Source: Janibacter massiliensis
Lineage (GTDB): Bacteria; Actinomycetota; Actinomycetes; Actinomycetales; Dermatophilaceae
Reading direction: 5' to 3'
Length of the DNA stretch: 64,000 nt
Assembly: GCF_900289115.1 (NCBI RefSeq)
Contig: NZ_LT985196.1
Location: 533,027 to 597,026, forward strand
The translations under genes were made by a program, and so were the position numbers. Each line of letters starts with the position of its first letter. Position 1 is the stretch's first letter. Shown piece after piece: positions 1 to 33,376 of this stretch. The notes under the pieces are model-generated. The model saw only the letters and a list, made by a program, of their open reading frames with translations, was not told the DNA's origin and searched no databases.

Positions 1-76
1 TGTGGTGCAGAGTCGGCGCCCTCCGGGCTCTCCCCCTCTCTATTCGTGGGCAGCGTCAGATGTGTATAAGCGACAG
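1..76. other. Sequencing-adapter contamination at contig end (Illumina P5 + i5 index + Nextera)
   Basis: Positions 44-76 match the Nextera transposase adapter with two mismatches; the mosaic-end core is readable as AGATGTGTATAAGCGACAG at 58-76. Positions 36-43 read CTCTCTAT, the published i5 index S502. Positions 10-35 align without gaps to the P5 flow-cell oligo at about 18 of 26 positions, most differences falling on A. The order P5-index-adapter is exactly that of a library molecule, so this is technical sequence and not chromosome. It also explains why the first gene breaks off here. Confidence 0.95.
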
Positions 77-5095: not shown

Positions 5096-5108
5096 GGGTT
5101 CTCCTTGG

Positions 5109-5705: not shown

Positions 5706-5709
5706 GGAC

Positions 5710-5737
5710 AACAATGTATCACCACCGTTACTCTGTT
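5710..5737. promoter_or_regulatory. Candidate TetR operator in divergent promoter
   Basis: An imperfect inverted repeat lies between the two divergent starts: AACAATGTATC (5710-5720), six bases, then GTTACTCTGTT (5727-5737). The arms match at 8 of 11 positions when one is reversed. The stretch is AT-rich compared with everything around it, as expected for a promoter. Location and symmetry fit autoregulation by the adjacent TetR protein. No footprint data; this is inference. Confidence 0.4.
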
Positions 5738-5741
5738 TCAC

Positions 5742-15731: not shown

Positions 15732-18700
15732 GTGCAGGTCTTCGATGTCCGAGAGAAGGTCGTCACCGACTACCGAACCTTTACCGAGGCGTCGGTGAGC
15801 CCTCGGGCGCGGGACATCCGGGCCTTCCTCGACCTTCAGGCCCAGGACGGCGCCCAGTGGCCGGACCCGTGGATCAGCCTGAACCCGAGTTTCCGGGCGG
15901 GCGGTTCGATCGAGGACCTCGTCGCCCAGGGCCGCCTGCACCCGGACACCGCCCCGATCTTTCGCATCAAGAACCCCGGTAGCGACCCCGCGGGTGAGCC
16001 GCTGCACCTCCATCAGCACCAGGCGGACGCCATCGATGCCGCGCGCGCCGGCGGGTCGTACGTCCTGACGACCGGCACGGGGTCGGGCAAGTCGCTCGCC
16101 TACATCATCCCGATCGTCGACCACGTGCTGCGGTCCCGCGTGGCCGAGGGGCCTCGCCGCGGGGTCAAGGCGATCATCGTCTACCCGATGAACGCGCTGG
16201 CCAACTCGCAGATGGGCGAGCTGGAGAAGTTCCTCGACCACGGTTTCCCCCCTGGCCAGGCGCCCGTGCGGTACAAGCGATACACCGGGCAGGAGGGCGA
16301 GGACGAGCGCGCCGCGATCCTCGCCGATCCCCCGGACATCCTCCTGACGAACTACGTGATGCTCGAGCTGGTTCTCACCCGGCCGAAGGAGCGCGACTCG
16401 CTGGTCGCCGCCGCGGAGGGGCTGCGGTACCTCGTCCTCGACGAGCTCCACAGCTACCGAGGCCGCCAGGGCGCGGACGTCGCGCTGCTCATCCGACGGG
16501 TTCGCGACGCCTGCCGTTCCGAGCAGCTGGACGTCATCGGCACCTCGGCGACGATGGCCACCGGCAAGCGGGCCGAGCAGGCGGCCGAGGTGGCGAGGAC
16601 CGCGAGCCTGTTCTTCGGGGTGGAGGTCCCGCCTGAACGGATCATCGGCGAGACCCTGGTTCGGTCCACCACGGGGGACGCCTCCGACCGTTCAGCCATC
16701 GTCGAGGTCATCGACGAACCCGACCTCCTCGACCGCCTCGACTACGACGCCCTCGCCGCGCACCCGATCGCCGCGTGGGTCGAGGACCGGTTCGGGCTCG
16801 ACGGCGAGAGCGACCCGCCGCACCTCGTTCGCCGTCGCCCCTCTCGGATCGAGACCGAGGCCCGGGTCCTTGCGTCGCAGACGGGGCGCGGCGAGACCGC
16901 CTGCGGAGAGGCGCTGCGCCGGACCCTGCTGCGGGGGTCGAACGTGGCGCACCCGCGCACCGGTCGGCCGCTCTTCGCCTTCAGGCTGCACCAGTTCCTG
17001 TCCAAGGGTGACAACGTCTACTCGACCATCGAGCCCGAGGGTGCGCGCACGCTCGTCGGGACCTACCAGCTGCGGTCCCCGCAGGACCATGGCGCGGCGC
17101 TCCTGCCCATGACGTTCTGCCGCGAGTGCGGCCAGGACTATCTCGTCGCCGACCTTCGGCCCGATGCGGACGGCACCTGGGTCGCAGCCCGTCCCGGCGT
17201 CGGGGACGACCCGTCGCGGATGCAGCGCGGATACTTGTACCTGTCCCGGGGGGACGACTTTCCCTGGCCGGAGAACCCCGTCGTCAGCAAGCGCCTCCCG
17301 GCCGACTGGTTCGAGACCGTGGACGGGCAGGATGTCGTTCGGAAGAACTACGAGCAGCACCTTCCCCGGACGGTGCGCGTCCGCAAGGACGGATTGATTG
17401 ACGACGAGGGACAGCTCGCCTGGTGGGTTCCCTCACCCTTTCGCTTCTGCCTGCGGTGCACGACCTCGTACACCAACGTCCGCGGGAACGACTACCCCCG
17501 CCTGGCGACCCTCGACCGCGAGGGCCGGGCGAGTGCCATCACGGTCATCGCGACCAGCCTGCTGCGCACGCTGCGTGAGCTTCCCGACGAAGCTCTCGAC
17601 CCCCGGGCGCGCAAGCTGCTGACGTTCGTCGACAACCGGCAGGACGCTGCCCTGCAGAGCGGGCACTTCAACGACTTCGTCCTCACGGCGCAGCTGCGGG
17701 GGGCGTTGGTCAGGGCGCTGGAGCACTCGGCCGACCACACCCTCGACCACGAGGCGGTCGACTCTGCGGTGTCCGAGGCCCTCGCCCTGGACTTCGAGGA
17801 GTACGCGCTCTCGCCGGAGGCGGTGTACTCCGCACGCGAGCGGGCCGAGTCGGCGCTCCGCCGGGTGGTCGGGTACCGCGTCCTCGCCGACCTCAAGGTC
17901 GGCTACCGGCTGACCATGCCGAACCTCGAGCAGACCGGCCTGCTGGTGGTCGATTACGCCGATCTCGACCTCGTCGCGAAGGACGACGCGATGTGGCGCG
18001 GGTGCGATCCGATGCTCGCCGACGCTCGCCCGCAGCAACGCGCCGAGTGGTGCCGGGCTCTCCTGGGGGAGTTCCGCCGGGAGCTCGCGGTGTACGCCGC
18101 ACCGCTCACGGGTCAGGGGTGGGACCAGCTCCAGAGCGCCTCGCGCCAGCATCTCACCGGGCACTGGGCCCTCGCAGAGAACGAGCAGCCCGCATCGACC
18201 TCGCGCGTGATACCTGGCAGCCCGCCGAAGGGGCGACGCAAGGGAGCGGAGCACGACGACAAGTTCCTGGGGGGGCGTAGCGCGTTCGGTACGTACATCG
18301 CGCACGAGCACAACGAGGTCCGCGGGACGCGTCCGTCGGTCGAGGACCGGGTCGGCCTGATCCGCGACCTCTGCAGCGTGCTCGCCCGGGCGGGCATCCT
18401 CGTCGAGGTCGGCGACCAGAAGGGCGGACCCGGGTACCAGCTGAACGCCGGAAGCGTGGTGTGGCGGCTGGGCGGCGGGAAGAAGGGGTATGTCGACCCG
18501 GTCCGGGTGCACATCTACGCGGAGCACGCGAAACGGGTCAACCCGTACTTCGTCGAGCTGTACCGGGACGTCGCAGCGTCGCTGAAGGGCCTCCGGTCGC
18601 GGGAGCACACCGCTCAGGTGCCTCCGGCCGAGCGCGAGGAGCGCGAGCACGAGTTCTCCGAGGCGAAGCTCAACGCACTCTTCTGCTCCCCGACGATGGA

Positions 18701-20867
18701 GCTCGGGGTCGACATCAAGTCGCTGAACGCCGTCGCCCTGCGGAACGTCCCGCCGTCACCGGCCAACTACGCTCAGCGCTCCGGCCGCGCCGGGAGATCT
18801 GGCCAGCCGGCGCTCGTGACGACGTACTGCGCGACGTTCAGCGCCCACGACCGGTACTTCTTCAACCGGCCGGAGCAGATGGTCGCCGGGGTCGTCCAGC
18901 CGCCCCGGCTCGATCTGGCGAACGAGGCGCTCCTGCGCAGCCACGTGTACGCGATCTGGCTCGCCGAGGCGGGGGTCTCCCTCCCGGCGCGGATCCCGGA
19001 CCTGCTCGAGATGGACGACATCGACATCCTTCCGATCGACCGCGACCTCCGGGCGGACCTCACCCGTCCCGACATCGCGCCCCGGGCGGTTGCGCGCGCC
19101 GAGAAGGTCGTGCGCGCGGCGCGGACGTCGTGGGGGTCGGGGGATGCCGACTGGTGGTACGAGGAGTGGGTCTCGGACGTCATCTCCCGGGCGGAGACCG
19201 AGCTCGACGAAGCCCTCGAGCGGTGGCGCATCCTCTACCGCGCGGCCTACCGGGAGCACGAGGCGCAGTCGAAGCGGGTGCGTGACCACGCGACCGACCA
19301 CGCGGGGCGCCGTGATGCCGAGGCCCGGCAGCGGGAGGCGGCCGGGCAGCTGCGTCTGCTGTCGAACGAGGACCGCGACGGCGGCCAGACGGACTTCTAC
19401 ACCTACCGCTACCTCGCGTCGGAGGGCTTTCTGCCGGGGTACTCCTTCCCCCGCCTGCCCCTGGCTGCGTACATCCCCGGCATGACCCGGAACGCCGGGG
19501 ACTACATCCAGCGGCCCCGGTTCCTCGCGATCTCCGAGTTCGGGCCAGGTGCACTGATCTACCACGAGGGCGCGCAGTATCAGGTGTACCGCGTCGAGGT
19601 ACCCCGGGGCGCCGACGGCGTGACGACGGAGTCCGCCCGCACCTGCGAGGCCTGCGGCTACCACCACCGGGTCGAGGTGGGGACGGATCGGTGCGAGCTG
19701 TGCGGTGCCGAGCTCGGCGACGAGACCCGCGGCCTGCTCGAGCTGCGCACGGTCTTCACGAAACGACGCCACCGGATCAGCAGCGACGAGGAGGAGCGGC
19801 GGCGCCAGGGGTACGAGCTCCGGACGACGTACCACTTCACGCAGGGGCCGTCGGGACGCTCGCATCACGACGCGTCCGTGGCCGGGGAGTCGGGTCCGCT
19901 CCTGGAGCTGACCTACGCCGACTCGGCCACCGTCCGGGTGACCAACCTCGGCCCCAGACGCGCCGCTCACGGTGACAAGGGCTTCATCCTCGATCCCCGG
20001 AACGGCCGGTGGCTGCGGCAGTCCGACGAGAACGGGGACGACGACGCGCTCACCGATCCGGGGACGGTGGAGCGCCCCATCCGTGTCGTGCCGTACGTCC
20101 ACGACCGGCGGAACATCGTCATCGCCCGGTGGGCGGAGGAGCTCACCCCCACGCAGGCCGTCACCCTGCGCCACGCGCTCGAGCGCGGTATCGAGGTCTG
20201 CTTCCAGCTGGAGGACTCCGAGCTGTCGTCGGAGGCGTTGCCCGACCCGGACAACCGAGGGCGGCTGCTCCTCACCGAGTCGTCAGAGGGAGGCGCGGGC
20301 GTGCTCCGTCGCCTCGTGTCCGAGCCGGATGCGGTCGCCCGCGTCGCCCGGGCCGCCCTCGACCTGCTCCACTTCGACGACCGAGGGGGCGACCTCCGCC
20401 GGGCGCCGACGGCGACCGAGGACTGCCAGCTCGCCTGCTACGACTGCCTGCTCGGGTACAACAACCAGCCCGACCACGCGCTCATCGACCGTCACAGCAT
20501 CGTCGACCTGCTGCTGGCGCTCGCCGGGGGCTCGACCGCTGCCCAGGGGGACGCCACGCCGGGCGCAGCGGGTGTCGCGGACGCCGCTGACCTCGACAGG
20601 TTGACCAGCTACGAGCAGGAGCTGGTCGGGTGGCTCGAGCAGCACGGCCACACGGTCCCCATGTCGTTCGGGATGCGCGTGGGTGACATCCGCGTCCCGA
20701 TCGTCTACCCGGACCACGCAGCGGTCTTCGACCTGCGCGATCCCGATGCTGCCGGGTGCGCCGATGCCCTGGAGGATCTCGGGTGGACCGTGGTCCGGGT
20801 CCGCGGCACGGACGAGCTGGCGAAGACGGTGCCGACGCTGTCGTCGGTCTTCGGGGCAGGACGATGA
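15732..20867 (+). CDS. Very large DExH helicase with C-terminal DUF1998-like domain (DrmA-DrmB-fusion-like)
   Basis: Product of 1711 residues. N-terminal VQVFDVREKVVTDYR leads into a superfamily-2 helicase with Walker A TTGTGSGKS (K120), DELH box (237-240) and helicase C motif QRSGRAGRSG (about 1015). Two zinc-like knots, CRECG (about 463) and CLRCTTSY (about 573), interrupt the core. The C-terminal third has CEACG and CELCG (about 1305-1320) and EDCQLACYDCLLGYNNQ (about 1565), the cysteine signature of DUF1998. In DISARM defence, DrmA (helicase) and DrmB (DUF1998) are separate; here both sit in one chain. A Druantia DruE-like reading is the main alternative. GTG 15732 starts the family homology. 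It leads the operon, 10 bases before the SNF2 gene. Confidence 0.85.
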   Translation: MQVFDVREKVVTDYRTFTEASVSPRARDIRAFLDLQAQDGAQWPDPWISLNPSFRAGGSIEDLVAQGRLHPDTAPIFRIKNPGSDPAGEPLHLHQHQADAIDAARAGGSYVLTTGTGSGKSLAYIIPIVDHVLRSRVAEGPRRGVKAIIVYPMNALANSQMGELEKFLDHGFPPGQAPVRYKRYTGQEGEDERAAILADPPDILLTNYVMLELVLTRPKERDSLVAAAEGLRYLVLDELHSYRGRQGADVALLIRRVRDACRSEQLDVIGTSATMATGKRAEQAAEVARTASLFFGVEVPPERIIGETLVRSTTGDASDRSAIVEVIDEPDLLDRLDYDALAAHPIAAWVEDRFGLDGESDPPHLVRRRPSRIETEARVLASQTGRGETACGEALRRTLLRGSNVAHPRTGRPLFAFRLHQFLSKGDNVYSTIEPEGARTLVGTYQLRSPQDHGAALLPMTFCRECGQDYLVADLRPDADGTWVAARPGVGDDPSRMQRGYLYLSRGDDFPWPENPVVSKRLPADWFETVDGQDVVRKNYEQHLPRTVRVRKDGLIDDEGQLAWWVPSPFRFCLRCTTSYTNVRGNDYPRLATLDREGRASAITVIATSLLRTLRELPDEALDPRARKLLTFVDNRQDAALQSGHFNDFVLTAQLRGALVRALEHSADHTLDHEAVDSAVSEALALDFEEYALSPEAVYSARERAESALRRVVGYRVLADLKVGYRLTMPNLEQTGLLVVDYADLDLVAKDDAMWRGCDPMLADARPQQRAEWCRALLGEFRRELAVYAAPLTGQGWDQLQSASRQHLTGHWALAENEQPASTSRVIPGSPPKGRRKGAEHDDKFLGGRSAFGTYIAHEHNEVRGTRPSVEDRVGLIRDLCSVLARAGILVEVGDQKGGPGYQLNAGSVVWRLGGGKKGYVDPVRVHIYAEHAKRVNPYFVELYRDVAASLKGLRSREHTAQVPPAEREEREHEFSEAKLNALFCSPTMELGVDIKSLNAVALRNVPPSPANYAQRSGRAGRSGQPALVTTYCATFSAHDRYFFNRPEQMVAGVVQPPRLDLANEALLRSHVYAIWLAEAGVSLPARIPDLLEMDDIDILPIDRDLRADLTRPDIAPRAVARAEKVVRAARTSWGSGDADWWYEEWVSDVISRAETELDEALERWRILYRAAYREHEAQSKRVRDHATDHAGRRDAEARQREAAGQLRLLSNEDRDGGQTDFYTYRYLASEGFLPGYSFPRLPLAAYIPGMTRNAGDYIQRPRFLAISEFGPGALIYHEGAQYQVYRVEVPRGADGVTTESARTCEACGYHHRVEVGTDRCELCGAELGDETRGLLELRTVFTKRRHRISSDEEERRRQGYELRTTYHFTQGPSGRSHHDASVAGESGPLLELTYADSATVRVTNLGPRRAAHGDKGFILDPRNGRWLRQSDENGDDDALTDPGTVERPIRVVPYVHDRRNIVIARWAEELTPTQAVTLRHALERGIEVCFQLEDSELSSEALPDPDNRGRLLLTESSEGGAGVLRRLVSEPDAVARVARAALDLLHFDDRGGDLRRAPTATEDCQLACYDCLLGYNNQPDHALIDRHSIVDLLLALAGGSTAAQGDATPGAAGVADAADLDRLTSYEQELVGWLEQHGHTVPMSFGMRVGDIRVPIVYPDHAAVFDLRDPDAAGCADALEDLGWTVVRVRGTDELAKTVPTLSSVFGAGR

Positions 20868-20877
20868 GAGGGTGGGT

Positions 20878-23763
20878 ATGAGCGTGACGGGATCTTTGGC
20901 GGCCGGGTCGCTGGTCCGGGCGCGAGGTCGGGAATGGGTGGTGCAGCCGGGCAGCGACGACGACTTCCTCGTCCTGCAGCCGCTCGGCGGGCGGGCCGAG
21001 GACGTCACGGGTCTGCACACCGCGCTGGAGCAGGTTGATCCCGCGACGTTCCCCCTGCCCTCCGCCGATGATCTGGGGGATGCCCGGAGCGCCCGTCTGC
21101 TCCGCACCGCCCTGCGGCTCGGTTTCCGGTCGACCGCCGGCCCGTTCCGCTGCATCGGCTCGATCGCGGTCGAGCCGCGGGCCTACCAGCTGGTCCCGCT
21201 GATGCTCGCCCTGCGCCAGCCGGTCACCAGGTTGCTCATCGCCGACGACGTCGGCATCGGCAAGACGGTCGAGGCAGGCCTCATCGCGGCGGAGCTGCTC
21301 GCCCAGGGCAGCATCGAACGGGTGGCCGTCCTCTGCAGCCCGGCGCTCGCCGAGCAGTGGCAGCAGGAGCTGCGCGAGAAGTTCCTCCTCGACGCGACAC
21401 TCGTCCTCACCTCGACCGCGGCGAGGCTCGAGCGGGGCCTGATGATGGACGAGTCGCTCTTCGACCGGCACCCGGTGACGGTCGTCTCGACCGACTTCAT
21501 CAAGTCCCCGCGCCGGCGTGACGACTTCGTCCAGCACGCCCCCGACCTCGTCATCGTCGACGAGGCGCACACCGCTGTCATGGACGCGGACACCACGGGC
21601 CGGGCGCGCCACCAGCGGTTCGAGCTGCTGACCGCGCTCGCCGCGAACCCCGCCCGTCATCTCCTGCTCGTCACGGCGACGCCGCATTCGGGCAAGGAGG
21701 AGGGTTTCCGCAACCTCGTCGGGCTGCTTGACCCGCAGCTCGCGACGATCGACCTCGACACCACGGCCGGCCGCGAGCGCCTTGCCCGGCACATGGTCCA
21801 GCGTCGTCGGAAGGACATCCGCCACTTCGTCCAGGCCGGGCTGCAGGAGCAGACCGTCTTCCCCGAGGACCGGGAGACCGCCGACCGCGCCTACTCCCTC
21901 ACCCCTGCCTACCGTGACCTTTTCAACCGGGCGCTGGCGTTCGCCCGGGAGCAGGTGACGGACACGTCGGGGAGCGCCGTGCACCAGCGGGTCCGGTGGT
22001 GGTCCGCTCTGGCGATGCTGCGGACCCTCGCGTCCTCCCCGGCGGCCGCGGCGGAGACCTTCCGCTCCCGGGCGGCTTCCGTGCAGGCTGAGGACCTGTC
22101 GACCGTCGACGCCCTCAGTCGGTCGCGGGTGTTCGACGCGGCGGACGACGAGGCGGTCGAGGGCATGGACGTCTCCCCCGGCGCCGACCCGGGCACCGAG
22201 GCCGAGGGGGAACTCTCGTCCGCATCGCGCGAGCGCCGGACGCTGCGGGACCTCGCGCGTCGGGCGGAGGCGCTGCGTGGCCCGACGGAGGACGCGAAGC
22301 TCGCCGTGGCGGTGCGCGAGGTCAAGCGCCTGCTCGCCGACGGGTACAACCCGATCGTGTTCTGCCGGTTCATCCAGACGGCCGAGTACGTCGCCGAGCA
22401 CCTGAGCAACGCGCTCGGCAAGGGAATCGTCGTCGGGGCGGTGACCGGGACCCTGCCGCCGGCGGAGCGCACCGAGCGCATCGCCGAGCTCACGGCGGAC
22501 CCGGACAAGCGGCTCGTGCTCGTCGCCACCGACTGCTTGTCGGAGGGAGTCAACCTCCAGGAGCACTTCCAGGCGGTGCTCCACTACGACCTGGCGTGGA
22601 ACCCGACGCGCCACGAGCAGCGCGAAGGCCGCGTCGACCGGTTCGGGCAGCGGGCGAGGACGGTGCGGGCGCTGACGCTGTACGGCCCGGACACCCAGAT
22701 CGACGGCATCGTCCTCGACGTCCTCATCCGACGGCACCGCGCCATCCGCAAGGCGACGGGGGTGAGCGTGCCGGTCCCCGATCAGAACGACTCGGTCCTC
22801 GAGGCCCTGATGGAAGGCCTCCTCCTGCGGGGCGCGAGCGGCGACCAGCTGCTGCTCGATGTCGATGTCTCGCGCGCGGACCACGACCTGGAGACAGCGT
22901 GGGAGTCCGCGGCGGCCAAGGAGAAGGACACCCGGACGAAGTACCAGCACGCGGCGCTGAAGCCGGAGGTCGTCGCCGACGAGGTCAACCGGATGCGTGA
23001 GGCCATCGGCACCGGCGCGGAGATCGAGCCGTTCGTCCGGTCGGTCCTCGTGGGGCTCGGCGGTCATATCACCGGCGACGCCGAGGACCGGCTCGAGGTC
23101 GCCACCGACACTCTCGACCCCGCGCTGCGGGACCTCCTGCCGCGCACCGGGCGCCACGGGTCGACCTTCGTCCGCACCGCACCCGCCCCGTCGGGCGCCG
23201 CGGCGCTGACGCGAACCGACCCGACCGTCGCCGCGGTGGCCCGCCACGTGCTCGAGTCGGCCTTGGACGCCAGCGTTCCGGGCGAACGTCTGGCCAGGCG
23301 GGCCGGGATCATCCGCACCACCGCCGTGACCGGACGGACGACGCTGCTGCTCGTGCGCTACCGCTTCCACCTCGATCTGCCGAGCCGGGAGAAGGGGACG
23401 CGCACGCTCGTCGCGGAGGACTGCGAGCTCCTCGCCTTCCGCGGAGCGCCGAGCAGCGCGCAGTGGCTCGACGCGGCGGAGACAAGCGCGCTCGCCGAGG
23501 CGCGGCCCGACGCGAACATCCCGCCGGACCAGGCGCGACAGGGCATCGCCACGATGCTCGACCAGCTGCACCACGTCGAGGAGCACCTCACGGCACGGGC
23601 CGACGAGCGGGCGGCGGAGCTCGCCACCAGCCACGCCCGGGTCCGCGAAGGCGCGGGCGAGATCATCCGCGCGCTCAAGGTGCGTGCCGAGCACCCCGTC
23701 GACGTGCTCGGGGTCTACGTGTACCTGCCCGTCGTGGGCGCGACGAAGGGAGCCGGTTCGTGA
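20878..23763 (+). CDS. SNF2-family helicase, DISARM DrmD-like
   Basis: The 961-residue product has helicase core motifs IADDVGIGKTVEAGLI (Walker A near 122-137), LVIVDEAHTAV (DEAH near 227), VTATPHSG, SEGVNLQEHFQ and HEQREGRVDRFGQ (motif VI near 581), all typical of bacterial SNF2/RapA-type translocases. The long C-terminal region has no motif I recognise. Size, sequence style and its position directly before a large adenine methylase match DrmD of class-1 DISARM. ATG 20878 follows AGAGGG. Its stop overlaps the methylase GTG by GTGA, so the two are coupled. No nuclease motif is visible. Confidence 0.85.
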   Translation: MSVTGSLAAGSLVRARGREWVVQPGSDDDFLVLQPLGGRAEDVTGLHTALEQVDPATFPLPSADDLGDARSARLLRTALRLGFRSTAGPFRCIGSIAVEPRAYQLVPLMLALRQPVTRLLIADDVGIGKTVEAGLIAAELLAQGSIERVAVLCSPALAEQWQQELREKFLLDATLVLTSTAARLERGLMMDESLFDRHPVTVVSTDFIKSPRRRDDFVQHAPDLVIVDEAHTAVMDADTTGRARHQRFELLTALAANPARHLLLVTATPHSGKEEGFRNLVGLLDPQLATIDLDTTAGRERLARHMVQRRRKDIRHFVQAGLQEQTVFPEDRETADRAYSLTPAYRDLFNRALAFAREQVTDTSGSAVHQRVRWWSALAMLRTLASSPAAAAETFRSRAASVQAEDLSTVDALSRSRVFDAADDEAVEGMDVSPGADPGTEAEGELSSASRERRTLRDLARRAEALRGPTEDAKLAVAVREVKRLLADGYNPIVFCRFIQTAEYVAEHLSNALGKGIVVGAVTGTLPPAERTERIAELTADPDKRLVLVATDCLSEGVNLQEHFQAVLHYDLAWNPTRHEQREGRVDRFGQRARTVRALTLYGPDTQIDGIVLDVLIRRHRAIRKATGVSVPVPDQNDSVLEALMEGLLLRGASGDQLLLDVDVSRADHDLETAWESAAAKEKDTRTKYQHAALKPEVVADEVNRMREAIGTGAEIEPFVRSVLVGLGGHITGDAEDRLEVATDTLDPALRDLLPRTGRHGSTFVRTAPAPSGAAALTRTDPTVAAVARHVLESALDASVPGERLARRAGIIRTTAVTGRTTLLLVRYRFHLDLPSREKGTRTLVAEDCELLAFRGAPSSAQWLDAAETSALAEARPDANIPPDQARQGIATMLDQLHHVEEHLTARADERAAELATSHARVREGAGEIIRALKVRAEHPVDVLGVYVYLPVVGATKGAGS

Positions 23764-26700
23764 AGGGCGACTTCTCGACCATCCGCACGGTCGGCACGAC
23801 CCTCCCGGCGGAGCTCCTCGAGCGGGTCGTCGCCGGGGACACCCAGCTCGGCCGACTGTCGGCCGCGGACTACCACCTCGCCGCGGGCGAGACCCCCCGG
23901 GCGGCGGCGCACCGCGCGTGGTCGTACCTCAAGCAGGCGTGGGTCGGCTTCCGAGGACAGATCGAGGGCCGCCGGGACGACGACCCGCTCATCGGGGTGA
24001 CCCGCGACCAGTGGCTGCACGTCGTGCTGCGCGAGCTCGACTACGGGCGGGTGCCGCAGACGCCGGCCGGCGGCATCGTCGTCGACGAGCGGGCCTATCC
24101 CGTCTCGCACGAGTGGGGGGCGCTCCCCATCCACCTGCTCGGGTGGAACGTCCCCCTGGACCGCAGGTCCAAGGGGGTGCCGGGAGCGGCGGACCGGGCG
24201 CCGCACGCGATGGTGCAGGAGCTGCTCAACCGGTCCGAGGATCGCCTGTGGGGGATCCTCGCGAACGGCCGGAGCCTGCGGCTGCTCCGCGACTCGACGA
24301 ACCTCACCGGGGTCTCGTACGTCGAGTTCGACCTCGAGACGATGTTCGACCACGACGTCTTCAGCGACTTCGTCGTCCTCTACCTCCTGTGCCACCAGTC
24401 CCGCTTCGAGGTCGGTGAGGGCCAGCCGCCGACGGCCTGCCCCATCGAGACGTGGCGGTCCACGGCCCGTGACCTCGGCGTCCGGGCGCGGCAGGAGCTA
24501 CGCGAGGGGGTTGCCCGGGCGCTCGAGCTGCTCGGCAACGGCTTCCTCACCCACCCGGCGAACACCGAGCTGCGACGCCGCCTGTCCACCGGGGAGATGA
24601 CGCACACCGAGCTCCACCGCGAGCTCATGCAGCTGGTCTACCGGCTGCTCTTCCTCTTCGTCGTCGAGGACCGCCCCGAGCGGGACCTCATCCTCGATCC
24701 CGCGATCACCCCGGCGCAGCGCGAGCGCTGGTCGGTGTACTACTCCAGTCGGGTGCTCCGGCGCCGCGCCCTCGTGCTGCGCCGGACGCGTCACGGCGAC
24801 GAGTGGCAGCGGACGTGGACGGTGCTGCGGGGGCTCGGCGGTGACGGGATCCCGGAGCTCGGCGTCACCGGGCTGGGTGGGCTCTTCGCGCCGACACCGG
24901 GCGAGACCCTGGCGGCGGAGGCACTCACTCGGGCCGATCGATCCGCCCCGCTGTGCCAGATCGGCAACGACTCCTTTCTCGCCGCGGTCCGTGCGCTGTC
25001 CGTGATCCGGCTCAAGGGGCAGCCGGAGCAGGTCGTCGACTTCGGTCGCCTGGGCGCCGAGGAGCTCGGGGGCATCTACGAGTCGCTGCTCGAGCTCGTC
25101 CCGCACCTGGACATGTCGACGTGGGCCCTCTCGTACGGCGAGTACCTGGGCAACGATCGGAAGACGACCGGGTCGTACTACACCCCGAGCGATCTCATCG
25201 ACCTCGTTCTCGACGAGGCGCTCGACCCGTTGCTCGACGAGGCGGAGCGCGCCGACGACCCGGAGGCCGCACTGCTGGCGATGACGGTGTGCGACCCGGC
25301 GTGCGGGTCCGGGCACTTCCTCGTCGCGGCCGCCCGACGGATCGCCGAACGGGTCGCACTGGTGCGTTCGGAGACGCGGGACCTCCTGCCGGGCGACCTC
25401 GACGCGGCGATGCGCGATGTCGTCGTCCGGTGCATCTACGGCGTCGACCTCCAGCCGATGGCCGCCCAGCTCGCGAAGGTCGCGCTGTGGCTCGAGTCGA
25501 TGGAGCGCGGGAAGCCGCTCGCCTTCCTCGACCACCACATCAAGGTCGGCAACTCCCTGCTCGGGGCGACTCCGGCGCTGCTGTCCCGGGGTGTGCCGGA
25601 CGGCGCGTACGCGGTGCTCACCGGGGACGACAAGAAGGTCGCCGCGGCGCTGAAGAAGCAGAACCGCACCGAGCGGGTCGCCAAGCAGTCCACCCTCCTC
25701 AGCCAGGACGACGACGCCGAGGGGATCGAGATCGCGCCCGAGCGGGTGCGCGCACTCCAGGCGGTCGTCCCGCAGCGCACCGCCGCCGAGGTCGCGGCGG
25801 TTGCCGAGCGGTTCCGCGCGCTGGAAAGCGACGACGAGATGACGCGCGCCCGGCGCGCCGCGGACACGTGGTGCTCCGCCTTCACCGCGCCGAAGGTCGA
25901 TTCCAGCCGGGCAATCACCACGGAGACGGTGCGCAACGCTGCGCACGGCACGCTGCCGGCTGTGCTAGGCGAGATCGTGTCGGAGGAGGCGACCCGCTAC
26001 CGCTTCTTCCACTGGCACCTCGAGTTCCCCGAGGTCTTCACCCCGCTGCCGGCGGACGACATCCCCGACGACGACCCGACCGGCTGGGCGGGCGGGTTCA
26101 CGGCGATGCTCGGCAACCCGCCCTGGGACCGCGTGAAGCTGCAGGAGAAGGAGTTCTTCGCGCACCGGGACGCCGCCGTGGCCGCGGCTCCGAACGCCGC
26201 CGCACGCAAGCGGCTCATCACCGCGCTCGTGGAGTCGAACCCCACGCTGGCGGCGGAGTGGCAGGATGCTGTTCACCAGTCCGAGGCGACGAGCGCTCTG
26301 CTGCGGGTGTCGGGGCGGTTCCCCCTGTGCGGGACGGGGGATGTCAACACGTACAGCGTCTTCGCCGAGCTGTTCCGCTCGTCGCTGTCCCCCGCCGGCC
26401 GCATGGGGATCATCACACCGACCGGCCTCGCAACGGATGCGACGACCTCAGCGTTCTTCGCCGACACGCTCCAGGCCCGGCGCCTCGGGACGTTCTACGA
26501 CTTCGAGAACGAGGCGAAGATCTTCGCGGGCGTCCACAACCAGTTCCGCTTCGCGGTGACGTCGATGACCGGTGGAGTTCGTGCTGATCGCACGCGCCTC
26601 GCGTTTTACACCCGATTCATCGCCGACGTGCCCGATCGCCGGTTCGAGCTCAGCGCCGACGAGATCCTCCGGATCAACCCCAACACCGGGACACTTCCGC

Positions 26701-27797
26701 TGTTCCGTACCCGCCGGGATGCGGAGATCACCCTCGCGGTGTACCGCCGGTTCCCGGTTCTCATCGACGACGCGACCGGCACGAACCCCTGGGGTCTGCG
26801 CTTCATGCGGATGTTCGACATGGCCAACGACTCTGGTCTGTTCCGGACCGGCGAGCAGCTCGCGCAGGACGGGGCGGAGTTCGACGGGTGGGCGTGGACC
26901 TCCGGCCCCCGGCGCTGGGTCCCGTTGTACGAGGCGAAGATGCTCGGCCACTACGACCATCGGTTTTCGACATACCGTGGCGCCACACAGGCGCAGCTGA
27001 ACAAGGGCACGCTCCCCCACCCCGACGCGGCCGCCCACGACGACCCGTCGATGGAACCCTTGGCCCGCTACTGGATCCACGAACGCGAGGTCGACAAGCA
27101 GCTCGATAATCGCTGGGACCGCGACTGGCTCCTCGGCTGGCGCGACATCGCTCGCGCTAGCGATGCCCGGACCTGCGTACCGAGCGCAATGCCGATCTCA
27201 GCCGTCGGTGGTGGTTTCTACCTTGCGTTCCCAAGGCAGGGCGGCGACGGCCCTCTTCTTGAGGGCGTGTGGTCGAGCTTTGCGTATGACTTCCTCGCCC
27301 GACAGAAGGTGAGCGGCGCTCACCTCAACCTCTCGCCGATGAGGCAGCTGGCGTGCCCGACGCCGGGCGAGGTCGCGGCATCTCTCCGTGGCGTCGACTC
27401 GACGTCATACGCGGGTTGGCTGCGCCCGCGGGTGCTCGAGCTGACGTACACCTCGTGGCGCATGGCCCCGTTCGCGGTCGACTGCCTAGAGCTCCCCGAC
27501 GGGACGGACCCCGGCCCGCCATTCCGGTGGATCCCGGAGCGACGGGAGCAGCTGCGCGCCGAGATCGACGCCGCGATGTTCCACCTCTACGGCATGCCCC
27601 GAGAGGACGTCGAGCACGTCATGGGTTCGTTCACCGTGGTCCGGAAGTACGAGCTGCGCGACCACGGCGAGTTCCGGACGAAGCGCCTCATCCTCGAGAT
27701 CTACGACGCCATGGCCGACGCCGCCGCCCGCGGCACGGTCTACACCTCACCCCTCGACCCCCCGCCGGGGCATGGACCTCGGCACGGATCGCGGTAG
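23760..27797 (+). CDS. Eco57I/DrmMI-like N6-adenine DNA methylase
   Basis: The 1345-residue product has SAM-binding motif I CDPACGSGHFLVAAARR (near residue 512), IYGVDLQPMAAQLAKVALW and the catalytic motif IV NPPW (near 785) of gamma-class adenine methylases, preceded by TGSYYTPSDLID. The roughly 480-residue N-terminus has no clear nuclease motif, and the C-terminus resembles the target-recognition part of type IIG / BREX PglX / DISARM DrmMI enzymes. It probably methylates adenine in host DNA to mark self. GTG 23760 overlaps the SNF2 stop. Base composition drifts lower near 27100-27400. Confidence 0.88.
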   Translation: MKGDFSTIRTVGTTLPAELLERVVAGDTQLGRLSAADYHLAAGETPRAAAHRAWSYLKQAWVGFRGQIEGRRDDDPLIGVTRDQWLHVVLRELDYGRVPQTPAGGIVVDERAYPVSHEWGALPIHLLGWNVPLDRRSKGVPGAADRAPHAMVQELLNRSEDRLWGILANGRSLRLLRDSTNLTGVSYVEFDLETMFDHDVFSDFVVLYLLCHQSRFEVGEGQPPTACPIETWRSTARDLGVRARQELREGVARALELLGNGFLTHPANTELRRRLSTGEMTHTELHRELMQLVYRLLFLFVVEDRPERDLILDPAITPAQRERWSVYYSSRVLRRRALVLRRTRHGDEWQRTWTVLRGLGGDGIPELGVTGLGGLFAPTPGETLAAEALTRADRSAPLCQIGNDSFLAAVRALSVIRLKGQPEQVVDFGRLGAEELGGIYESLLELVPHLDMSTWALSYGEYLGNDRKTTGSYYTPSDLIDLVLDEALDPLLDEAERADDPEAALLAMTVCDPACGSGHFLVAAARRIAERVALVRSETRDLLPGDLDAAMRDVVVRCIYGVDLQPMAAQLAKVALWLESMERGKPLAFLDHHIKVGNSLLGATPALLSRGVPDGAYAVLTGDDKKVAAALKKQNRTERVAKQSTLLSQDDDAEGIEIAPERVRALQAVVPQRTAAEVAAVAERFRALESDDEMTRARRAADTWCSAFTAPKVDSSRAITTETVRNAAHGTLPAVLGEIVSEEATRYRFFHWHLEFPEVFTPLPADDIPDDDPTGWAGGFTAMLGNPPWDRVKLQEKEFFAHRDAAVAAAPNAAARKRLITALVESNPTLAAEWQDAVHQSEATSALLRVSGRFPLCGTGDVNTYSVFAELFRSSLSPAGRMGIITPTGLATDATTSAFFADTLQARRLGTFYDFENEAKIFAGVHNQFRFAVTSMTGGVRADRTRLAFYTRFIADVPDRRFELSADEILRINPNTGTLPLFRTRRDAEITLAVYRRFPVLIDDATGTNPWGLRFMRMFDMANDSGLFRTGEQLAQDGAEFDGWAWTSGPRRWVPLYEAKMLGHYDHRFSTYRGATQAQLNKGTLPHPDAAAHDDPSMEPLARYWIHEREVDKQLDNRWDRDWLLGWRDIARASDARTCVPSAMPISAVGGGFYLAFPRQGGDGPLLEGVWSSFAYDFLARQKVSGAHLNLSPMRQLACPTPGEVAASLRGVDSTSYAGWLRPRVLELTYTSWRMAPFAVDCLELPDGTDPGPPFRWIPERREQLRAEIDAAMFHLYGMPREDVEHVMGSFTVVRKYELRDHGEFRTKRLILEIYDAMADAAARGTVYTSPLDPPPGHGPRHGSR

Positions 27798-27805
27798 GGG
27801 TACTG

Positions 27806-28999
27806 GTGCTCGTCTATCCCGTCGACGTCGAGTCACACAGCGACGACCTCCTCTGCACCGCCGTCAGGCAGCAGCTCGCCCAGCCGCTGACCCCCGATAT
27901 CGGCCCGGTGCCCGCGCTTGACCGTCCGCTGCGTACGCGAGTCCCCGACATCCTCCTCCGTCTCGGGCTGGTGATGTCTGCGCAGGGACGAACCGGCGGA
28001 GGTCGGACACGCTCAACCGACGCGCTGTGGCCGATTCTCAAGTACTTCCACTTCTTCCGTCGTTCCCGCCGAGGCGGACTGCTGGCGGGACCCGACGCTG
28101 CCCGTTATCGACATCACAGCCGCGGCGCCGTCTCAGACGAGCTCGGCATGGCGTTCAGTCTCCTTGCGGCTGAAAGATGGATCGTGGACGCCGGTCTGAT
28201 CCCAGGCAACATCGTTGACCTCGAACGCCACCCGGGGCCGCTGGCCCTCAACCTCGCCAGAGGCCGGCGCCCCGATTTCGGTTACGAGGCATTCGACCTC
28301 GGGACCATGACCCCGAGGTGGCTCACAGTCGAGGCCAAAGGAGCATCCGCGCCCGCGTCCGAGACGCGCGCGGCGAAGCAATTGGCTGACGCGCACGGGC
28401 AAATCACAGCGCTGCCCAACATCAGCGGGCTCGCATCGGTGACCTTCACCGGTCGTGGCCCCGTGTCCATCTGGGCCGTCGCCGCACCCGCGGAGGAACC
28501 GCTCGATCCCGTGCTTGCGGATTTCTTCAAGTTCTCTGCAGGTCGACGACGTCACCGGCCCGAGGCGCGCCTACGTCATTCGATCAGCGCTCTCGCCGCG
28601 TGGTCAGGGGTGAACATGCTTCTAGGTCAGGAACGTGAGGCCCCGGTCGAATACACCTCATTACGGGACGAGTGGATGGGCCACCTCGACGTCTACGGCC
28701 GCAGAGGGCAGCTCGAGGGTCTGGAGATCTTTCGCGGGATCGATGCCCCCCTGGCCGAGTCGTTGCTCAAGGGAGACGTCGACATGTACCTCTCCGCACG
28801 TGTGCAATTGGCCGAACAGTGGTTCGCACGTCAGTCGAGGATCGATGAAGATGACTACCGTGAGCTCTATGAGCCCGGCTCGACAACGTGGGTGACCGCC
28901 CTTGCGCCCAACGGTGCGATCCTGGCGATCCGCGGTCGGGTGAAGGTGCCCGAACGCGATCCCCGAGCGACGAGACTGGAGGAGATGGACGATGAGTGA
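27806..28999 (+). CDS. Unknown operon protein with PD-(D/E)xK-like core
   Basis: Product of 397 residues from GTG 27806, which follows an AGGGG tract 9 bases after the methylase stop. Near residues 153-178 it reads RRPDFGYEAF, then WLTVEAKGA: the P-D ... E-A-K spacing of a PD-(D/E)xK nuclease. The N-terminal 110 residues are basic and may bind DNA. The C-terminal 150 residues are helical with no known motif. It overlaps the mcrB-like gene by 8 bases, so it belongs to the same transcript. I do not recognise the family. It occupies the place where DISARM operons usually carry other accessory genes. Confidence 0.7.
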   Translation: MLVYPVDVESHSDDLLCTAVRQQLAQPLTPDIGPVPALDRPLRTRVPDILLRLGLVMSAQGRTGGGRTRSTDALWPILKYFHFFRRSRRGGLLAGPDAARYRHHSRGAVSDELGMAFSLLAAERWIVDAGLIPGNIVDLERHPGPLALNLARGRRPDFGYEAFDLGTMTPRWLTVEAKGASAPASETRAAKQLADAHGQITALPNISGLASVTFTGRGPVSIWAVAAPAEEPLDPVLADFFKFSAGRRRHRPEARLRHSISALAAWSGVNMLLGQEREAPVEYTSLRDEWMGHLDVYGRRGQLEGLEIFRGIDAPLAESLLKGDVDMYLSARVQLAEQWFARQSRIDEDDYRELYEPGSTTWVTALAPNGAILAIRGRVKVPERDPRATRLEEMDDE

Positions 29000-31205
29000 G
29001 AGCGTGCGCAAGGAAGTTCTGATCGCAGCCCTCATCGACGTCCTCCGTGAGTCGCACGGGCACCTGCCTGCGTCCCAGGCCATCGAGGCGGTGCGGCAAC
29101 GCGTCGAGCTGACCGAATACGAGCTCAGCCGGAACCCGAGCGGCCACGAGCGGTTCGACACCTTCCTCCGGTGGGAGTCCTCCGGGCTCGTCACCCTCGG
29201 GTGGATCGTCAAGGAGTACGACGGCTGGGTCGTCACCGAGGCCGGTCGCGCGGCGATGTCCGCGCCCCGTCCCGAGAACGGCTGGTACCGCTTCTACCAA
29301 GAGCTGTACAGGCGCGAGAAGGCCCGCCTCCGGTTGGAGGAGCGACGAACGGCTGCCGAGCTAACCATCGCCACGGCGCTCGACCTCCTCGAACCTGGCA
29401 CGTGGACGGGTCTGGACGACCTCGTGAGCTGCGTCGAGACCGACGAGGACGCTGTCGTGACGTGGCTCGCCGCGCACCAAGGAGCTGCGACGCGACGCGT
29501 GCTCGGCGCCGAGGGCCAGGTCCTCGACCGCCCGCGATGGCGACCGGACGACGACGCCGACTCCATACGCGCAGCGCTCGTCGCTGAGGGGTTGCAGTTC
29601 GACCCGGCCACCGGTCGGGCGAGCCTTGCCGGCCACCTCGGGCGGGAGGACCTCTTGCCAGACGAGGGAGACCCGGAGACGACGACGCGCGCGTGGCTGG
29701 TGCGCGGGTCGAACGTGTCCGGCAAGGACATGGTGCCGACCTGGCTGCGGGAGTCCTTCGTCTCCCTCGCCGCGACCCACCTCCGCACACTGAGCCTTCC
29801 GGTGGAACGGCGGCAGATCGCCGAGGCCGTCGAGATCGATTACGCGTCGCAGTCGTACAACCAGCGGTCCAACCGCTTGCGGTCGTTCGACCTGTTTCTC
29901 AACCGGATGTCGATCGACGACGTCGTCGTGACGGTGAAGGGGAGCGACCTCGTCATCGGCCATCTGATCAGCGAGCCGACGCAGGTCGCCTCGTCCGGCG
30001 GGCTGAGCAACCTGAGGCGTGAGGTTCGGTGGGAGAACCCCGATCGACCGGTGCCGTTCAGCGACCTACCCGAGGGCGTCAAGGCACGGCTGAAGTCCCA
30101 GGACGACGTCATCGACCTGACGACCCAGCTCGACGCCCTCCGCGAGCTCGCGGGGGAGACGACTAAGGACGAGACGGCCGAGGTCCCGGACGCCCCGCAG
30201 ACCGCAGACCTCCAGGACCCGACGCAGGACCTCGCCGACGAGCTGCACGTCGACCTCGAGTGGCTGCAGAAGACGACCCGGTTGCTCCGCCAGCGGAAGC
30301 AGATCATCTTCTACGGGCCCCCAGGCACGGGGAAGACGTACGTCGCGCAGAAGCTTGCCGAGGCCGTCACCGACGCGGACGCCGTGAAGCTCATCCAGTT
30401 CCACCCGGCGTACACGTACGAGGACTTCTTCGAGGGGTACCGCCCGACGCCGAACGCGGCTGGCGACGGGGTCCAGCTCGCACTCCGGCCGGGGCCGTTC
30501 CGCAAGCTCGTCGACCGCGCCTCGGACAACCCAGGCACGGCCTACATCCTCATCGTCGACGAGATCAACAGGGCCAACCTCGCCAAGGTGTTCGGTGAGC
30601 TGTACTTCCTCCTGGAGTACCGCAAGCACCCGATCGACCTGCTGTACGCCGAGCCCGATGCCGAGCCGTTCATCATGCCGCCGAACGTCTTCATCATCGG
30701 GACGATGAACACGGCCGACCGATCCATCGCGCTCGTCGATGCGGCCATGCGCAGACGGTTCGCCTTCCTCCCGATGCACCCGGACGAGCGGCCGACCGCG
30801 GGGCTGCTGCGGCGGTGGCTGGCGGCGAAGGGCGGCGACACCGAGCTCGCCGACATCCACGACGAGCTGAACAGCCGAATCGACGACGCCGAGTTCAAGA
30901 TCGGACCGTCGTACTTCATGCGGGATGAGGTCGCCGAGGAGGGCGGGCTCGAGCTGATGTGGGAGACGTCGATCGTCCCGCTGCTCGAAGAGCACTACTT
31001 CGGGGACTCTCAGGTCGACGTCGGTAGGCGGTTCTCGTTGGACGACGTTCGCAGGTCTGCGCGCCGTCTCCGCGAGCCGTCCGCCTCGCCGGCCGAGGGA
31101 TCGACCGAGGGCCAGTCGTTCGATAGCACCGGCGGGGCAGCTGGCGCTCCGGAGCCCGGCGACGTTGACGCGCCCGGTGTGGACGAGGGCGCCGGTGACG
31201 CCTGA
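28992..31205 (+). CDS. mcrB: McrB-like AAA+ NTPase of a modified-DNA restriction system
   Basis: The 737-residue product ends in a McrB-type motor with Walker A GPPGTGKTYVAQKL (near 440), the McrB block FHPAYTYEDFFEGYRP, Walker B VDEINRANLAKVFGELYF (near 522) and sensor segment NTADRSIALVDAAMRRRF. McrB proteins hydrolyse GTP and drive the McrC nuclease. The N-terminal 90 residues resemble an Mrr_N winged helix (FDTFLRWESSG, VVTEAGRAAM); the middle may read modified bases. The last 45 residues are Ser/Gly/Asp-rich and disordered. ATG 28992 follows GGAGGAG. It overlaps mcrC. Confidence 0.88.
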   Translation: MSESVRKEVLIAALIDVLRESHGHLPASQAIEAVRQRVELTEYELSRNPSGHERFDTFLRWESSGLVTLGWIVKEYDGWVVTEAGRAAMSAPRPENGWYRFYQELYRREKARLRLEERRTAAELTIATALDLLEPGTWTGLDDLVSCVETDEDAVVTWLAAHQGAATRRVLGAEGQVLDRPRWRPDDDADSIRAALVAEGLQFDPATGRASLAGHLGREDLLPDEGDPETTTRAWLVRGSNVSGKDMVPTWLRESFVSLAATHLRTLSLPVERRQIAEAVEIDYASQSYNQRSNRLRSFDLFLNRMSIDDVVVTVKGSDLVIGHLISEPTQVASSGGLSNLRREVRWENPDRPVPFSDLPEGVKARLKSQDDVIDLTTQLDALRELAGETTKDETAEVPDAPQTADLQDPTQDLADELHVDLEWLQKTTRLLRQRKQIIFYGPPGTGKTYVAQKLAEAVTDADAVKLIQFHPAYTYEDFFEGYRPTPNAAGDGVQLALRPGPFRKLVDRASDNPGTAYILIVDEINRANLAKVFGELYFLLEYRKHPIDLLYAEPDAEPFIMPPNVFIIGTMNTADRSIALVDAAMRRRFAFLPMHPDERPTAGLLRRWLAAKGGDTELADIHDELNSRIDDAEFKIGPSYFMRDEVAEEGGLELMWETSIVPLLEEHYFGDSQVDVGRRFSLDDVRRSARRLREPSASPAEGSTEGQSFDSTGGAAGAPEPGDVDAPGVDEGAGDA

Positions 31206-32421
31206 GCCGCTCGAGCTGCAGGAAGGGGTCGCCCGAGACGACTGCGATCTCACGGTCGAGCAGGCGTTCGCACTCGACGCGTCCGGGTGGCTGACCGTGA
31301 CGCGGTCCCCCGGCGGGCGGTGGACCGTCGCACCGAGGACATGGGTCGGATCTGCGCGAATCGGTGATCTCGACGTCGTCATCCGCCCCAAGCTGCCGAT
31401 CCGGAGGGTGTTCTTCCTCCTCGGGTACGCGGCCGGGAACGACCGGTGGGACGCGACGCCTACCGCCATGGCGACGACGGATGACCTCGTCGATGCGATG
31501 GCGAGCGCGTTCGTCGCCCAGGCGGAGCGAGCGATCGGCCAGGGCTTGCTGCAGGGGTACCGCACGGTCGAGGACGCGCTGCCGGTCGTCCGCGGGCGGA
31601 TACGGCTCGCCGACCAGATGCGGCAGCACTTCGGGTTGGCGCTCCCGGTCGAGGTCACCTACGACGAGTTCGACACCGACATCGCCGAGAACCAGATTCT
31701 CAAGGCGGCGGCGACGGTGCTGCTCCGCCTGCCGATGGTGCGGCAGGACACGCGGCGGCGACTCGCCCGGGTACACCGCTCGCTGGCGGACGTCTCGCCG
31801 CTCGTGCGCGGGAGCGTCCTGCCTCACTGGTCACCGACGCGCCTCAACGCGAGATACCACGTGGCGGTGCCGCTCGCCGAGCTCGTGCTCCGATCGTGCT
31901 CTGTCGAGCAGGCCGCGGATCCGACCCAGCGGACGGCGGGCTTCATGATCAACATGGCGACCCTGTTCGAGGACTTCCTCGAACGTGCGCTCCGCGAGGC
32001 GATCGAAGGTCGGTTCGGTGGCGGGCTGAAGGGCCAGGACGGGCAGTGGCTCGACACCGGCCAGTCCGTGTGGGTCAAGCCCGACCTCGTCTGGTACCCG
32101 ACCGGGTCGTCGACGGCAGGGGCCGTGATCGACGCGAAGTACAAGGCGGAGAAGCCGTCCGGGTATCCGAACGCGGACCTGTACCAGATGCTCGCCTACT
32201 GCACGATCCTCGGCCTCGACCGGGGACACCTCGTGTACGCGAAGGGTCAGGCCGAGCCAGCGCACCGAGTCGTCCGCAACGCGGGCGTCACCCTGGTCCA
32301 GCACGCCCTCGACCTAGACCAGGAACCTGACGCGCTGCTAGTGCAGGTCGGACATCTCGCGACTAGGGTCGTCGCACGGGAGTCGGGCGTCAAGCCACGT
32401 AGGTCGGGGGACTCGAACTAG
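31195..32421 (+). CDS. mcrC: McrC-like nuclease subunit
   Basis: The 408-residue product carries McrC features: an N-terminal region that docks to McrB (RIGDLDVVIRPKLPI), the LLQGYRTVEDALPVVRGRI segment, and a C-terminal PD-(D/E)xK nuclease. In the nuclease, D of VKPDLVWY (near 295) and D-A-K of VIDAKYK (near 313) make the active site. With McrB it should cleave DNA carrying modified bases. GTG 31195 follows GAGGG and overlaps the mcrB stop by 11 bases; GTG 31177 is a weaker alternative. A 34-base gap follows before the next, compositionally different gene. Confidence 0.9.
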   Translation: MTPEPLELQEGVARDDCDLTVEQAFALDASGWLTVTRSPGGRWTVAPRTWVGSARIGDLDVVIRPKLPIRRVFFLLGYAAGNDRWDATPTAMATTDDLVDAMASAFVAQAERAIGQGLLQGYRTVEDALPVVRGRIRLADQMRQHFGLALPVEVTYDEFDTDIAENQILKAAATVLLRLPMVRQDTRRRLARVHRSLADVSPLVRGSVLPHWSPTRLNARYHVAVPLAELVLRSCSVEQAADPTQRTAGFMINMATLFEDFLERALREAIEGRFGGGLKGQDGQWLDTGQSVWVKPDLVWYPTGSSTAGAVIDAKYKAEKPSGYPNADLYQMLAYCTILGLDRGHLVYAKGQAEPAHRVVRNAGVTLVQHALDLDQEPDALLVQVGHLATRVVARESGVKPRRSGDSN

Positions 32422-32455
32422 TTCCGGCGGAAGCCGCGACGAGAACTTAGGGGCA

Positions 32456-33376
32456 GTGGTGGTCCGAGCGGAATTCGAAGAAAAAGAGTATGAAACCTTC
32501 GCGAATGTTGAATTGTACCAACTAGGGCGTCGGGGGCCACTGCCTCCCCTATGGACGCCCGGCCAGGTCCTCGAAGCAACTTTGGGCTACGACGCCGCGG
32601 CGAACGTGCGCCTAAATAAATCGCTTCGCCGAGCAATGGCGCTCCCGCCTAGGCGGCACGCGCGAATGGACGGCGTGACCACCGCGGCAATCTATCCCGC
32701 GCGTGGGCAGTATGCGAACATTCCACGATTTGTGGCGAGCCTATTTATCCAGTATAAACGGCCTGACAGGATGAGCGGTCGAGGCCAGTCAGCACATCTC
32801 TGGAACGGCCAACGCTACTACCGTGCTCGAATCGAAACCGATTCCAACCAGTATAGAATCCTCCGTGATCTCGATCAGATGGTTCATCCGAGGGCAGTCG
32901 TCCGCTATGCCGCGCCAGCATTCCACACTCGAACCGAACTCTTCGCATCTGCGTCGACCCACGCGGTCCTGGAACGGACAGCATTTCTTCGACCGGTTCG
33001 ACTGAAGGACCAGCACACCTACTGGACCTACCGAATGCCTGGTAGCATGGGGCTGTGGAACCCCGCGGGGGATGCCTCCTATGCGGAGAGCATCGACCAA
33101 ATGGTCGAAAACCTGTCGGATAGGCAGGAATCAGAAACACTCCAGTCCCATTTGAGAGAACTTTTTCTATCAATTGCAGAGGCCGATCACCTTGGCTTAA
33201 CGGACAGCGACCGCCGCCTGCTAGATGCGTTCCTAGCGCCTAATGCGCGCATCGGGCGGCATTCGCAAGCGAGAGCGATACTCGCGATTTCCGGGTGGGT
33301 AGTGCGCCAACGCCTCACTTGGCGGCTGATAGCCCAACCACACGATCGCTACCGTGCTGGGATGATCGGGGCATGA
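32456..33376 (+). CDS. Low-GC unknown protein at island edge, possible nuclease-like
   Basis: The 306-residue product comes from a strikingly AT-richer gene: 26 G+C of 60 bases at 32461-32520 and 24 of 60 at 33121-33180. It contains VLEATLGYDAAANVRL, then PRFVASLFIQYKRPDRM, an E...G-Y-D...Q-Y-K arrangement that could be a PD-(D/E)xK-type core; no family is recognised. GTG 32456 follows GGGG and comes 34 bases after mcrC. The stop overlaps the purB ATG (ATGA at 33373-33376), so its 3' end abuts a housekeeping gene. It may be a later acquisition than the rest of the operon. Confidence 0.65.
   Translation: MVVRAEFEEKEYETFANVELYQLGRRGPLPPLWTPGQVLEATLGYDAAANVRLNKSLRRAMALPPRRHARMDGVTTAAIYPARGQYANIPRFVASLFIQYKRPDRMSGRGQSAHLWNGQRYYRARIETDSNQYRILRDLDQMVHPRAVVRYAAPAFHTRTELFASASTHAVLERTAFLRPVRLKDQHTYWTYRMPGSMGLWNPAGDASYAESIDQMVENLSDRQESETLQSHLRELFLSIAEADHLGLTDSDRRLLDAFLAPNARIGRHSQARAILAISGWVVRQRLTWRLIAQPHDRYRAGMIGA

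Follow-up and report, generated by a model that had tools for sequence, protein, structure and literature searches.

We found that seven consecutive plus-strand genes (g1 to g7), spanning positions 15732-33376 of the window (the whole 64,000-nucleotide stretch of DNA that was analysed), combine an ARMADA Type I-like cassette, a canonical NxxD McrBC pair, and two accessory genes (g4 and g7) in one translationally coupled operon, which was probably gained horizontally and probably constitutes a two-layer defence. The pairing of such a cassette with McrBC is already known; what look new are two putative nuclease-like families, the apparently eroded Vsr domain of the first gene, and how widely McrBC is coupled to the cassette, as measured here.

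Operon layout and genomic setting

A sequence-only reading of this DNA had proposed a seven-gene operon, and re-measurement reproduced exactly all of the junctions that it quoted: in order, a 10-base gap, a GTGA overlap, an 8-base gap, an 8-base overlap, an 11-base overlap, and a 34-base gap (Table 1). Its account of the gene contents agreed with our profile searches, which returned a DEAD helicase with an MZB/DUF1998 end, an SNF2 helicase, an Eco57I/N6 methylase, a McrB AAA protein, and McrC, and both profiles and motifs bore out a complete McrBC together with an extra nuclease-like gene (g4) within one coupled operon. The two genes it had called unknown, g4 and g7, drew no profile match here either, and the last gene is low in GC as it had remarked (62% at 32-33 kb versus about 72%). 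Four terminator-like sites were found between the operon genes against 4.2 expected in shuffles, none of them prominent, and a single transcript carrying g1 to g7 is therefore plausible. The start codon of g1 is GTG, with an upstream TTG at 15690 as a possible alternative start.

Table 1. Positions in the window of the operon genes, the Vsr-like region of g1, and the adjoining purB gene.
Feature	Position	Strand	Description
g1	15732-20867	+	YprA/DruE-like SF2 helicase with DUF1998/MZB, ARMADA YprA homologue; 1711 aa
C-terminal Vsr/DUF559-like nuclease region of g1	20619-20864	+	Predicted inactive; alignment with 21 relatives
g2	20878-23763	+	SNF2/RapA-like helicase, BrxHII/DrmD-like
g3	23760-27797	+	PglX/DrmMI/type IIG-like N6-adenine methylase; 1345 aa
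g4	27806-28999	+	Uncharacterised PD-(D/E)xK-motif protein; 397 aa
g5	28992-31205	+	McrB: variable N-terminal part, then AAA+ GTPase
g6	31195-32421	+	McrC
g7	32456-33376	+	Low-GC uncharacterised protein with nuclease-like motif; 306 aa
purB	33373-34797	+	Adenylosuccinate lyase; host core gene adjoining the operon, outside the defence system

By similarity to the corresponding block of relatives, the genes upstream of the operon include biotin genes and one for a low-molecular-weight phosphatase (13374-13880). Downstream, the start of purB, an eighth plus-strand gene that the sequence-only reading had passed over, overlaps the stop of g7 (ATGA, 33373-33376); this gene matches Pfam Lyase_1 and ASL_C and was found in 24 of 24 related genomes, and since relatives carry it we assign it to the host core genome rather than to the defence genes. 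In the relative L191, the phosphatase gene and purB stand approximately 1.4 kb apart without the operon, and this empty site identifies the operon as an insertion; our preferred explanation proposes that it was gained beside purB by horizontal transfer. No long flanking direct repeats and no tRNA were found at the ends of the island, nor any integrase among the flanking ORFs scanned. Through the ATGA overlap, purB, an essential purine gene, could come under control of the defence operon; inside g7, at 32832-32859, there is also a weak promoter-like site.

Near the start of the window (44-76), a remnant of the Nextera transposase adapter (...GGCAGCGTCAGATGTGTATAAGCGACAG) was observed with one mismatch in its 19-base core; given that this is probable assembly contamination, roughly the first 100 bases of the window are to be treated as unreliable. 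An adapter artefact at the operon itself was ruled out, as the adapter was seen at 44-76 alone, far from the operon.

Identity of the helicase and methylase core

ARMADA was described as a YprA helicase, a BrxHII/RapA-like helicase, and a PglX-like methylase, the latter two shared with DISARM class 1 and the first most like that of Druantia (Bell et al. 2025, PMC12458937). In Type I, which is common in Actinomycetota, YprA generally comes first, and in Type II a RelE-GajB gene (ArmD) follows; the Type I clade was defined by a YprA tree and gene set, and a C-terminal Vsr nuclease predicted to be active was described for its representatives (PMC12458937).

Profiles and motifs placed the three-gene ARMADA core (YprA helicase with DUF1998, BrxHII/RapA-like SNF2 helicase, and PglX-like methylase) in the window. 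g1 matched Pfam DEAD, Helicase_C, and MZB, carries the motifs GTGSGKS, DELH, and QRSGRAGR along with Cys pairs, and scored 316 bits against PADLOC DruE3, 286 against DruE1, and just 63 against DrmA. g2 matched Pfam SNF2-rel_dom and Helicase_C and bears DDVGIGKT, DEAH, and QREGRVDR, and g3 matched Eco57I and N6_Mtase, with the SAM motif DPACGSG and the catalytic NPPW both intact. The core is YprA-first, is without a RelE-GajB ArmD gene, and shares its order with relatives. These comprised 99 related loci, 80 of them gathered by alignment of g2 against 84,980 species genomes and 19 from sampled genomes of the phylum; the YprA-SNF2-methylase order was constant among them wherever the contig reached, across several phyla, and a g1 homologue was present in every locus except L117, which is on a truncated contig. 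On content, order, and profile ranking, g1 to g3 fit an ARMADA Type I-like core.

The sequence-only reading had instead seen a DISARM-like core and suggested a true class-1 DISARM (DrmD-DrmMI-DrmA/DrmB) that had lost DrmC and gained McrBC. DISARM class 1 does share homologues of the SNF2 protein and the methylase with the operon, as well as a helicase of the YprA family, and g2 matches the NCBIfam DrmD profile (293 bits) and g3 matches DrmMI (203 bits); however, g2 falls far under the DrmD model cut-off of 610 and g1 is DruE-like by its scores. Furthermore, DISARM splits helicase and DUF1998 between DrmA and DrmB and typically includes DrmC, a phospholipase D-type nuclease, whereas the window has neither: g1 holds helicase and DUF1998 in a single polypeptide, and profile searches found no match to DrmB, DrmC, or phospholipase D among the seven operon proteins. 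Because of this fusion and the absence of DrmB and DrmC, the cassette is not DISARM, and with both profile scores and architecture contradicting it we consider a class-1 DISARM origin highly improbable. What survives of the earlier proposal is the absence of DrmC and the recognition of a DISARM-related cassette, for which ARMADA Type I is the better fit than DISARM proper.

A separate candidate, Dpd, was raised by the 1013-bit match of g2 to PADLOC PDLC02853, which is labelled DpdE, and was ruled out as no DpdA occurs in the host genome. Against the same profile, ARMADA SNF2 proteins of Actinomycetota and Chloroflexota (L061, L100, L135) score 898-1027 bits; given these matches in two phyla and a host without DpdA, the DpdE label is probably wrong, and defence finders using this profile may mistake ARMADA for an incomplete Dpd system.

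McrBC linkage and the accessory genes

g5 matched Pfam AAA_5 and NCBIfam McrB PRK11331 (160 bits, under the model cut-off), and carries GPPGTGKT (Walker A, from 30315), DEINR, and NTADR, in which NTAD is the canonical NxxD signature. g6 matched Pfam McrBC (PF10117, 1.1e-54), and its PD...DxK nuclease motif (here PD...DAK) is intact at 32080-32139 (PDLVWYPTGSSTAGAVIDAK). From these features, g5 and g6 are predicted to be a canonical, non-CoCoNuT McrBC, with an NxxD McrB GTPase and a McrC bearing a PD-(D/E)xK nuclease.

The sequence-only reading knew of no named system that joins such a core to McrBC. In the passages of Bell et al. 2024 (PMC11090510) on these loci, the association of McrBC with a DISARM-like system is called particularly prevalent, and the domains drawn for the 'green' group in Figure 2 include YprA, DUF1998, SWI2/SNF2, and PglX; PMC12458937 likewise describes canonical McrBC operons as frequent companions of a DISARM-like cassette with YprA. 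As the link was already published, the central claim of novelty falls.

To the brief statements in the literature our survey adds a quantity. Taking as the base the 72 loci in which the methylase is complete and no less than 3.4 kb follows it, and seeking McrBC within 6 kb, we found a complete McrBC in 18 and a McrB cut by the locus end in 5 more, in every case on the strand of the cassette; the resulting 23/72 is a lower bound, with L071 showing a McrB-like N-terminus at its very edge. McrBC, usually overlapping or nearly touching the cassette (McrB starts -8 to +33 bases from the methylase stop in 14 of the 18), thus stands at about one third of close ARMADA I relatives, a figure for close relatives and not for all ARMADA I, since the loci were chosen by g2 similarity. 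The pairing turns out to be common in actinobacteria. McrBC is not obligatory, as about two thirds of the close relatives have none within 6 kb. The sequence-only reading had allowed that the first three proteins might fall in a named system normally accompanied by mcrBC, and this is largely what emerged, the system being named and McrBC present at about a third of close relatives; its other reservation, that the McrBC half might almost always be separate, was not what the genome survey found.

Linkage to McrBC follows clades, and the genes diverge together. Mapped onto the g2 tree, presence of McrBC required 8 changes versus 20.5 in shuffles, and the window falls in a supported five-locus group in which all five carry McrBC. 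McrB and McrC pairwise distances track the g1 distances (r = 0.84 and 0.88, respectively; p = 0.0005), a correlation that may come partly from shared host ancestry or joint transfer. Several other arrangements were observed. In L066 (16909-20390), an ARMADA I locus without McrBC, a Gabija-like pair of an OLD-TOPRIM ATPase and a UvrD helicase directly follows the methylase in the McrBC slot; in L062 (12850-20786), from Blastococcus, two ARMADA-type methylase genes stand in tandem upstream of McrB; and in L125 (18669-19388), a DUF6602 gene lies directly 3' of McrC as another accessory gene in an ARMADA-McrBC operon.

The accessory genes g4 and g7 have motif patterns that look like those of PD-(D/E)xK nucleases, and the two define nuclease-like families with no match in Pfam, PADLOC, NCBIfam, or PHROGs; profile searches of the PDB with both families gave no credible relative, and AlphaFold2 models of g4 (single-sequence) and g7 (three sequences) were unusable, with pLDDT of 30.5 and 31.8. 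g4, with PD at 28271-28276 and ExK at 28331-28339, belongs to an actinobacterial family that is rare: among 297 genomes of the class, 3 yielded a total of four homologues with 26-30% identity along the whole protein, and P156 D157 ... E176 x K178 G179 is invariant across the five sequences. No ARMADA or McrBC was found near these homologues, and g4 was absent from all 99 ARMADA loci, including the closest relative, L061, in which McrB starts 12 bases past the methylase. Most simply, g4 would have entered the methylase-McrB junction by insertion, with the tight spacing retained. Weak early matches to g4 in two genomes of the same family were rejected as chance similarity to an unrelated ORF. 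g7, a member of an unnamed family, carries E..LG(F/Y)D...QxK (D at 32591, QYK at 32750-32758), with E40, L43, G44, D46, Q99, and K101 invariant among five aligned members. Scans of viruses and plasmids returned no g4, and returned g7 in one plasmid and one prophage. One g7 homologue sits in the ARMADA-McrBC operon of L064, flanked by McrB and an AAA ATPase gene; of the others, that of L149 is carried by a plasmid from Vibrio, that of L150 neighbours a Type I restriction HsdR gene, that of L151 is at the edge of its contig, and that of L155 belongs to a prophage. In this prophage (868-2721, 5010-5831), ORFs resembling Vsr and cytosine methyltransferases were observed within a few kb of the homologue.

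These distributions bear on whether the components work together at all. ARMADA I and McrBC may be independent systems that accreted, along with two cargo genes, into a common transcript and are linked in function by nothing more than being carried together. The two thirds of relatives without McrBC nearby are consistent with this, as are the occurrence of g4 elsewhere without ARMADA and the other cargo in the slot, namely the OLD/UvrD pair of L066, an AAA gene in L064, and other ORFs in L088 and L125; against it stand the clade-structured retention of McrBC, the conservation of tight junctions across genera, and the co-divergence of McrBC with the ARMADA genes. We take accretion to be a serious possibility, if somewhat short of probable, and prefer the reading of the operon as a two-layer defence.

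Vsr erosion, proposed working, and comparison with known systems

Many relatives, including L061, L062, and L064, carry intact Vsr-like motifs, RPD(F/L).Y ... (V/I)DGPxH(D), at the end of the helicase. The window g1 instead reads RVPIVY and has a deletion at the DGPxH site, and its end, LEDLGWTVVRVR...SVFGAGR, is kept in frame; because the flanking frame and the final SVFGAGR are retained, the region looks like a case of domain erosion and not a frameshift. The active-Vsr feature of Type I representatives is therefore not found in this protein, its catalytic motifs being lost.

It may be supposed that McrBC-coupled ARMADA I is a single integrated machine, in which the cassette's own Vsr nuclease became dispensable and was replaced by McrC and/or the accessory PD-(D/E)xK proteins. 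In keeping with this, the window protein has lost the motifs, as have 15-16 of 25 McrBC-linked relatives (15 is the better figure, as L065 was scored degenerate yet keeps FLDGPVHD), and the McrC motif of the window is intact. However, degenerate motifs also occur in 19 of 48 loci without McrBC, all 19 in a streptomycete-type lineage, and the closest relative, L061, has McrBC and an intact Vsr motif together. Across phylogenetically independent pairs, a tie between Vsr loss and McrBC gain was favoured by 2, opposed by 0, and left tied by 4, which is not significant, and for this reason a hand-over of cleavage to McrC stays at the level of a hypothesis. We regard the integrated machine as unlikely; were it true, with McrC and the lineage-specific helpers g4 and g7 doing the cutting, one operon would restrict both unmodified and modified phage DNA. 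The eroded domain offers a natural knockout with which to ask which nuclease serves ARMADA I.

Methylase-based restriction acts on unmodified DNA, and McrBC cuts DNA with modified cytosine. Upon these established activities rests the division of labour in the two-layer defence that we favour; here we infer anti-phage activity, self/non-self logic, and any physical interaction among the products as well as this division. The ARMADA trio would tell self DNA, which is methylated, from invader DNA, which is unmodified, with its helicases engaging the invader DNA and processing it. Phage DNA that carries modified cytosine, and that escapes the first layer, would be recognised by the GTP-driven McrB and cut by McrC. 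Given the eroded Vsr-like nuclease of the YprA helicase, cleavage after ARMADA action would probably be supplied in trans (McrC, g4, g7) or be replaced by helicase action. That the trio modifies self and attacks unmodified DNA is suggested by analogy with the E. coli ARMADA Type II system, which provides direct, non-abortive defence requiring the methylase NPPW and helicase Walker motifs; the phage tests in PMC12458937 concerned Type II. With McrBC so tightly attached and retained by clade, functional coupling between modification-based and Type IV restriction is directly testable.

Among known systems, the operon most resembles ARMADA Type I in having a Druantia-like YprA helicase, then a BrxHII/RapA-like SNF2 helicase, then a PglX-like methylase, without ArmD. 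A BrxA-like insert after RecA1, a MarR-like insert, and a coiled-coil finger are also among the features ascribed to ARMADA Type I. The operon departs from the published Type I representatives in the loss of the Vsr nuclease motifs from its helicase, and in carrying McrBC along with two nuclease-like genes. It resembles the McrBC-DISARM-like group, as that is presented in the relevant passages of PMC11090510, in its NxxD McrB, its McrC with a PD-(D/E)xK nuclease, and the adjoining YprA/DUF1998, SNF2, and PglX genes, a likeness judged by these features; the association is described in those passages without accessory genes such as g4 and g7. With Druantia the operon shares a DruE-like protein, DruE being the best profile match of g1, whereas the SNF2 and methylase partners are foreign to that system and no other Druantia gene is present in the operon. 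In the BREX-BrxU and hsd-mcrBC pairings, modification-based restriction of unmodified DNA is combined with a Type IV enzyme directed against modified DNA; these are not homologous to the window operon as whole systems, but they provide the working analogy for it.
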